A stretch of 64,000 bases of DNA. It comes from Halorubrum sp. DM2 (lineage in GTDB: Archaea > Halobacteriota > Halobacteria > Halobacteriales > Haloferacaceae). Location of the stretch: assembly GCF_901686465.1 (NCBI RefSeq), contig NZ_LR594487.1, forward strand, positions 2,387,020 through 2,451,019. The letters are read 5' to 3'. A program made the position numbers and the translations under genes. A model generated the notes under the pieces. It was not told where the DNA came from and ran no database searches. It saw only the letters and a program-made list of their open reading frames with translations. This document shows, piece by piece, positions 29,741 through 51,812 of the stretch (positions are counted from its first letter, which is position 1; each line of letters starts with the position of its first letter).

Positions 29741-30058
29741 GTGCGGTGGCGCGTGCCTCCGAGCGGTCGCCAGCGGCGACCGCGAGGAGCACCGCGCGAG
29801 GGAGTCGACCGGTCGGAGCAACGCGGAGACCGGTCGACGAGGCTGGGGAGGCGTGAGGTTGTGGTGCGGAGCTGTCGGGCGGGAATCGAAGGGGCAGTCG
29901 CCGGCGGCTTCGCCGCCGGCTGCCCGAGGCGCGTAGCGCCTCGCTGCCGCGAGGAGGAAGACGCGCGACGTAAGCACTGGAGGGAGCGAACGAAGTGAGC
30001 GACCGAAGCGCGCAACGAGCGCATCGACTCCTCGCGGCTTGGGCTTCGGCGGTCTCGG
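29741..30058 (+). repeat. Dispersed structured element, copy 1
   Basis: First of three homologous non-coding elements. Shared blocks: GTGGCGCG-GCCTCCGAGCG, GCGCGAGGGAGTC, CGACGAGGCTGGGGAGG, GAATCGAAGGGGCAG, and the terminal CTCGCGGCT-GGGCTTCGG. Hairpins: A 29764-29771/29775-29782 (CGGTCGCC/GGCGACCG), B 29804-29814/29828-29838 (11 bp), C 29946-29956/30028-30038 (11 bp). Two extra perfect hairpins lie near 29891-29940. No ORF is conserved with the other copies. Confidence 0.85.
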
Positions 30059-37133: not shown

Positions 37134-37394
37134 GACCGAGACCGCCGAAGCCCCAGCCGCGAGGACTCGCGCACCTCGCTGCGCGCTTCAGTCGTTCGCT
37201 TCGCTCACTCCTTCCAGTGCTTACGTCGGTGTGCTTCGTCCTCGCGGCTGCCCCTTCGATTCCCGCCCCGCGACAGCACCGCACCTCACGCCTCCCCAGC
37301 CTCGTCGGTCGCCTCCGCGTTGCTCCGGCGACTGACTCCCTCGCGCGGCGCTCCTCGCGCCAATAAAAGGGCGCTCGGAGGCGCGCGCCACCGC
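37134..37394 (-). repeat. Dispersed structured element, copy 2
   Basis: Reverse-orientation copy in the thi4-pyk gap. Hairpin arms (plus coordinates): C 37154-37166/37238-37250 (13 bp, CAGCCGCGAGGAC/GTCCTCGCGGCTG), B 37308-37313/37327-37332, A 37357-37361/37370-37374 (GCGCC/GGCGC) with an AATAAAAG loop. The linking blocks CCTCCCCAGCCTCGTCG and CTGCCCCTTCGATTC are the complements of those in copies 1 and 3. The remainder of the 490-nt gap (37032-37133, 37395-37522) shows only the pyk promoter area. Confidence 0.85.
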
Positions 37395-51420: not shown

Positions 51421-51674
51421 CGGTGCGGTGGCGCGCGCCTCCGAGCGCCCGCTAGGGCGCGAGGAGCGTCGCGCGAGGGAGTCGGCGGCTCCCGTTGGTC
51501 GCCGCCGACGAGGCTGGGGAGGTGTGAGGTGCTGTGCGGGGCGGGGCTCGAAGGGGCAGCCGCGAGACGGACAGAGGCGACGGCAGGACCGCAAGAAGCG
51601 AGCGGAGCGAGCGACTGAGGACCGCACCGAGCGTCTGTCCGTCTCGCGGCTGGGGCTTCGGTGGTCGTCTCGTC
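51421..51674 (+). repeat. Dispersed structured element, copy 3
   Basis: Third copy, 40 nt after aroE. Hairpin A 51445-51450/51455-51460 (GCGCCC/GGGCGC), B 51481-51489/51501-51509 (GTCGGCGGC/GCCGCCGAC), C 51557-51575/51634-51652, a perfect 19-bp stem starting CAGCCGCGAG. Conserved links include CGACGAGGCTGGGGAGG (about 51507-51523) and TCGAAGGGGCAG. The rest of the 51381-51812 gap shows only a second CTGGGGCTTCGG (about 51701-51712) and an AT-rich end. Confidence 0.87.
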
Positions 51675-51812
51675 GACAGCAACCGTGTCGTGCCGAGCGC
51701 CTGGGGCTTCGGGAGCGTCCGTGTCGATCGGCGATTTATAAGGAGGCTTCAGCTATCGGTCGTTTCGGCCAGAATAACCACTAAAATCGACCGTCGACAG
51801 ATCCGAGTACGC

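Follow-up and report, generated by a model that had tools for sequence, protein, structure and literature searches.

What is the three-hairpin element that recurs in the genome of the haloarchaeon Halorubrum sp. DM2, and does it work as RNA or as DNA? The question arises from the window analysed here, a stretch of 64 kb (64,000 nucleotides) in which the first-pass annotation described three copies of an element whose stems differ in sequence while still pairing. A sequence check located all three copies together with every stem that had been quoted (Table 1), and the differences among the stems are real, with pairing retained. Copy 1 is longer than the others because it carries a nested double-hairpin insert. 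However, description of the element as having three copies was a considerable understatement. An exact pattern of two conserved blocks occurs at 96 places in the genome and its reversed control at none, while covariance model R1, which represents the 5' half of the element and was trained on 26 copies, matches 141 places in the 3.45-Mb genome. Its counterpart for the 3' half, model R2, was trained on 33 copies and has 130 matches in the same genome. As 125 of these 130 domain III matches (including one at 2694007) lie just downstream of a same-strand R1 match over domains I-II, the element is a single unit; the remaining R2 matches comprise three that are in the usual place but inverted and two that are solitary.

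Table 1. Coordinates of the three copies and their parts (window positions unless marked as genome positions)
Feature	Position	Strand	Basis or remark
Copy 1, domains I-III	29743..30049	+	R1 and R2 matches, sequence
Copy 1, R1 match over 5' half	29743-29859	+	covariance model R1
Copy 1, R2 match	genome 2416949-2417068		covariance model R2
Copy 1, stem A CGGTCGCC/GGCGACCG	29764..29782	+	sequence
Copy 1, stem B GTCGACCGGTC/GACCGGTCGAC	29804..29838	+	sequence
Copy 1, nested double-hairpin insert TCG-hairpin-CTGCC-hairpin-CTG, between TCGAAGGGGCAG and stem C	29898..29945	+	
Copy 1, stem C GCCGCGAGGAG/CTCCTCGCGGC	29946..30038	+	sequence
Copy 2, domains I-III	37145..37394	-	R1 and R2 matches
Copy 2, R1 match over 5' half	37283-37394	-	covariance model R1
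Copy 2, R2 match	genome 2424164-2424279		covariance model R2
Copy 3, core element, domains I-III	51421..51661	+	R1 and R2 matches
Copy 3, R1 match over 5' half	51425-51530	+	covariance model R1
Copy 3, R2 match	genome 2438566-2438680 (window 51547-51661)	+	covariance model R2
Copy 3, stem A GCGCCC/GGGCGC	51445..51460	+	sequence; covarying helix 2
Copy 3, stem B GTCGGCGGC/GCCGCCGAC	51481..51509	+	sequence; covarying helix 3
Copy 3, near-invariant unpaired block GAGGCTGGGGAGG	51510..51522	+	
Copy 3, domain III: P0 (CGAAG/CTTCG), GGG/GGG internal loop, stem C (19 bp)	51547..51661	+	
Copy 3, tail repeat: ~39-nt spacer, then second CTGGGGCTTCGG	51662..51712	+	
G-rich linker of the element GAGGCTGGGGAGGCGTGAGG			

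The element consists of three hairpin domains set apart by near-invariant, unpaired, G-rich linkers. Its 5' part runs from TGCGGTG through domain I and the linker GAGGGA to domain II, which is stem B, and its 3' part continues with the linker GAGGCTGGGGAGG-YGTGAGG-(TGCGGT)n-GGGGYGGG, domain III and zero to three tail units, each a spacer of about 40 nt followed by CTGGGGCTTCGG. Domain I is a basal helix, P1 (GGCGCGYGC...), that bears stem A, with a conserved GAG/CGAG closing the stem and a covarying Y/R pair in P1 (columns 12 and 50 of alignment A2). In domain III, basal helix P0 (CGAAG/CTTCG) is followed by an internal loop whose two sides each contain GGG, and then by the long stem C. The left end of the element, TGCGGTGGCGCG, and the right end, CTGGGGCTTCGG, are not inverted repeats of each other. 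Several copies depart from this plan. For example, nested double-hairpin inserts of 50-60 nt occur in copy 1 and elsewhere (L009, L027, L029, L044, L051, L094 and others) in two types, TCG-hp-CTGCC-hp-CTG and GTGGTT-hp-TCATCA-hp-AACGAC, whose own stems vary and which are seen in either orientation; the latter type is also present in a genome of another family (L286). Whole hairpins are also found inverted in place, as with the entire stem B of copy 3, which is reverse-complemented relative to the form in other copies, the stem B loop in L014, and domain III in L018, L026 and L088. In L001, L017 and L075, the sequence 3' of the core holds identical tail units in tandem, each about 51-63 bp long with CTGGGGCTTCGG at its end, and one type of tail spacer found in other copies includes TTTATAAA. 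In the L080 copy unrelated sequence, perhaps another mobile element, breaks in after GTGAGG.

The first-pass annotation took paired changes in all three stems to argue for selection on structure, and the covariation behind that argument lies far above controls. Among 93 own-genome copies, standard pairs fill 96.1% of the paired cells in domains I-II, and both partners have changed in 20 of 29 pairs. The covariation score of 0.324 compares with 0.116 for shuffled controls and no more than 0.069 for controls with slid partners. Domain III alone gives 94.2% standard pairs, changes on both sides in 16 of 24 pairs and a score of 0.356 (0.114 shuffled, at most 0.074 slid). Alignment A4 had been fitted to the model, but the same answer comes from A2 and A5, which are plain MAFFT alignments. 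When 3' arms are swapped between copies, stem B averages 5.5 instead of 10.1 uninterrupted pairs. Basal helix P0 covaries from one species to another, being CGAAG/CTTCG in 132 copies and CAAAG/CTTTG in 73, with mixed forms nearly absent and GAAAG/CTTTC in other haloarchaea. Paired changes alone nonetheless fall short of proving selection, given that copies trade stem modules and that each arm of a palindrome can serve to correct the other. Taken to its limit, this point yields a purely mutational account, in which palindrome arms correct each other and hairpins are copied between loci while the fold itself goes unselected. Such an artefact would fit the near absence of stem B intermediates with a single changed arm, the inverted hairpins and the shared stem repertoire; we consider it highly improbable, as both the near-invariant unpaired blocks across haloarchaeal families and the G.T bias described below would need a further cause.

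Exchange of stems becomes apparent when sites are compared among species. Of the comparable sites, 13 of 17 are occupied in one relative and 12 of 15 in a second (4 and 3 being empty), comparison of these two relatives with each other gives 16 of 19 filled and 3 empty, and orientation is identical at every shared site compared. Stems at these fixed sites turn over. Similarity of stem A is 0.599 at orthologous and 0.572 at random sites, that of stem B is 0.686 and 0.662, and within the genome the types of stems A, B and C assort nearly independently (near linkage equilibrium), with association of modules seen only for the adjacent P1 and A. In addition, 12 stem B hairpins are identical between Halorubrum sp. 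DM2 and other species. Since orthologous stems are no more alike than random ones and modules assort independently, these sequence patterns are best explained by module exchange between copies, with stem sequences not inherited along with the site; gene conversion would be the probable mechanism. Empty sites also differ in their flanks and are missing the flanking spacer, so they fix neither the insertion boundaries nor the direction of change. Thus, as no target duplication or exact insertion junction can be defined, we only infer that the element is mobile.

Mismatches within the stems bear on whether the element acts as RNA or as DNA. On the element's + strand, non-Watson-Crick pairs are G.T rather than A.C by 82:23 when stems B and C are summed over the own and other genomes. 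Stem C contributes ratios of 30:6 in Halorubrum sp. DM2 and 32:8 in other genomes, and stem B ratios of 6:4 and 14:5, respectively; domains I-II alone give a weaker 27:18 in the own genome. This excess favours single-stranded RNA, and it would be accounted for by selection acting on an RNA fold or, alternatively, by mutation tied to transcription. A replication bias should cancel, because elements are equally distributed over both chromosome strands (68 and 73). Mutation bias may also be a source of the excess, because the one unpaired block examined varies mainly from C to T (11 of its 15 single changes, all at one position). Together with the unpaired blocks that stay near-invariant across families, the G.T excess indicates that the working fold is probably single-stranded and RNA. 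A site acting in DNA, as a cruciform or as G-rich single-stranded DNA for chromosome organisation or recombination, is improbable. It would be in keeping with the equal use of strands, the lack of a promoter, the random spacing on the core chromosome and the whole hairpins inverted in place, but a one-strand asymmetry of G.T over A.C is not expected of double-stranded DNA, and neither regular spacing nor strand runs are found. Apart from voids, spacing and strands look random, and a replication-strand or regular-spacing role is rejected. The element-free stretch of 356 kb (genome positions 1016124-1372176) has 54-60% G+C in five of six samples vs about 69% elsewhere and looks like acquired DNA; it carries one TnpB gene.

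Gene context was analysed for 94 copies with a simple codon-based gene caller. All 94 are intergenic with no gene predicted inside any of them, and 83 face the 3' end of one or both neighbouring genes. Gaps that hold copies are convergent in 38 cases, tandem in 45 and divergent in 11, while 299 background gaps from a 460-kb stretch include 46 convergent, 189 tandem and 64 divergent ones, so that convergent gaps are over-represented (38/94 vs 46/299). The position at 3' ends and the enrichment of convergent gaps are what would be expected of a cis-acting 3' UTR, terminator or transcription-insulating RNA element. We regard this explanation as quite improbable given that the element is far more elaborate than a terminator and displays no orientation preference between tandem genes (20 sense and 25 antisense). 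No conserved promoter was found upstream of the 94 copies and, with TTATAA or TTTATA within 25 nt upstream of just 18 of them, a universal promoter of their own is rejected. A simple cis-acting mRNA element is therefore disfavoured by the missing promoter and the missing orientation preference alike.

Covariance models were built and searched against Halorubrum and other haloarchaeal genomes as the first-pass annotation had proposed. The element is present in 34 of 34 relatives of the same genus, where the counts per genome are lower bounds, and weaker relatives with similar blocks in the same order occur in other haloarchaeal families, one genome of another family having 54 matches. In a scan of named genomes, the matches listed include Halorubrum species, an uncultured archaeon and one Halobellus, and the only positives in a phylum-wide sample are haloarchaea of the same order. 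Searches of viral contigs, phages and plasmids returned no match to the element, and a virus or plasmid origin is rejected. Sub-types in other genera (L283-L304; G144, G159, G252) keep the 5' half and differ in their 3' parts, and some carry tandem repeats of their own, such as CTGAAGCTAGCTTC.

The element is thus real, abundant, structured and undescribed in the literature searched. We give about an even chance to the account that it is a dispersed, non-coding, non-autonomous structured haloarchaeal repeat amplified in Halorubrum, that works as a folded + strand, most likely in RNA form, and whose modules are exchanged ectopically at fixed intergenic sites. One strand of each copy is able to fold into P1 with stem A, stem B, and P0 with stem C, and under this account a putative trans-acting factor would recognise the linkers. 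Hairpins would be needed merely as helices, such that any well-paired module suffices. Copies would have dispersed long ago with occasional gain or loss continuing, and ectopic exchange, perhaps provoked by the hairpins themselves in polyploid cells, would swap stems and keep the family intact. More tentatively, the element may constitute a new haloarchaeal class of structured RNA with more than 100 loci per Halorubrum genome, whose conserved information would reside in the unpaired linkers, with interchangeable hairpins reassorting between loci and a working fold retained at each. The element would be a high-copy structure, present throughout the genus, that annotation has apparently missed, and its copies supply a ready covariance model with which to reannotate haloarchaeal genomes. 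Additionally, more than 100 copies in one genome would provide a natural experiment that tests one fold with different stems, and because a copy's position is inherited and its stems are not, ectopic exchange in haloarchaea becomes open to direct measurement.

Comparison with known families agrees with the first-pass annotation, which recognised none. Rfam gave no match at gathering thresholds in the 64-kb window and a permissive search of copy 3 gave one hit at chance level, which together reject a known RNA family; the covarying helices and conserved unpaired blocks do resemble structured RNA classes in Rfam. The idea that the copies are fragments of a known insertion sequence or of a protein gene did not hold up, as the eight IS605/TnpB loci of the genome lack element-like ends and changes in hairpin length between copies are not multiples of three. 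At these eight PF01385 loci, R1 scores no better than E 0.016 and R2 no better than E 0.22, with just stray single short blocks of the element present. Derivation from IS605/TnpB is thus rejected for Halorubrum sp. DM2, their ends being dissimilar. The omega RNA of TnpB overlaps the tnpB 3' end and the right end of the transposon; this identity is also rejected given the absence of an element match at the eight loci. The terminal inverted repeats of MITEs are likewise lacking, since the two ends are not mutual inverted repeats. Bacterial REP/BIME elements, which are mobilised by a REP-associated tyrosine transposase, are intergenic, palindromic, numerous and often located by gene 3' ends. The element shares these features of copy number, palindromes and location, but REP/BIME are much shorter and have no three-domain architecture. 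A search of open-access literature text with the element's blocks and haloarchaeal repeats found no description of it.

Among haloarchaea, the palindrome-associated transposable elements (PATEs) of Haloquadratum walsbyi, heterogeneous and with more than 170 copies per genome, have palindromes close to their termini that are related to IS605 transposons, together with a target of 4-6 bp (PMC3119063). PATEs and the element are both haloarchaeal, non-coding and palindromic, both lack terminal inverted repeats, and both are targeted by small nested repeats (PMC3119063); the element is also too short for a transposase. Neither IS605-like near-terminal palindromes nor a 4-6 bp target was found in the Halorubrum element (no column exceeds 0.3 bits upstream of position -5 at its 5' end), and three covarying hairpin domains with interchangeable stems are not mentioned for PATEs in the text consulted. 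The element is not filed as a PATE because the link to IS605 ends and the target oligonucleotide are missing, although it may work like one. A purely selfish PATE- or MITE-like element, mobilised in trans via its hairpins and with no host function, its structure being a requirement of transposition, would suit the high copy number, the presence or absence at orthologous sites, the avoidance of promoters and the small nested elements, features that resemble PATEs and SMR-A (PMC3119063). We find this rather unlikely, as most sites are common to the species and yet copies have not decayed, terminal inverted repeats and a conserved target oligonucleotide are absent, and the ends are unlike those of the genome's IS605/TnpB loci. 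SMR-A small mobile repeats of Haloquadratum insert in palindromes of larger repeats and are 110 bp with terminal inverted repeats, whereas the nested inserts in the Halorubrum element are double hairpins of about 50-60 nt; SwitchRepeats are cases in which two strains carry different repeats at the same position, whereas the exchange described here involves hairpin modules within one family (PMC3119063). The best reading of this structured repeat places it nearest to the PATE/REP-like elements.
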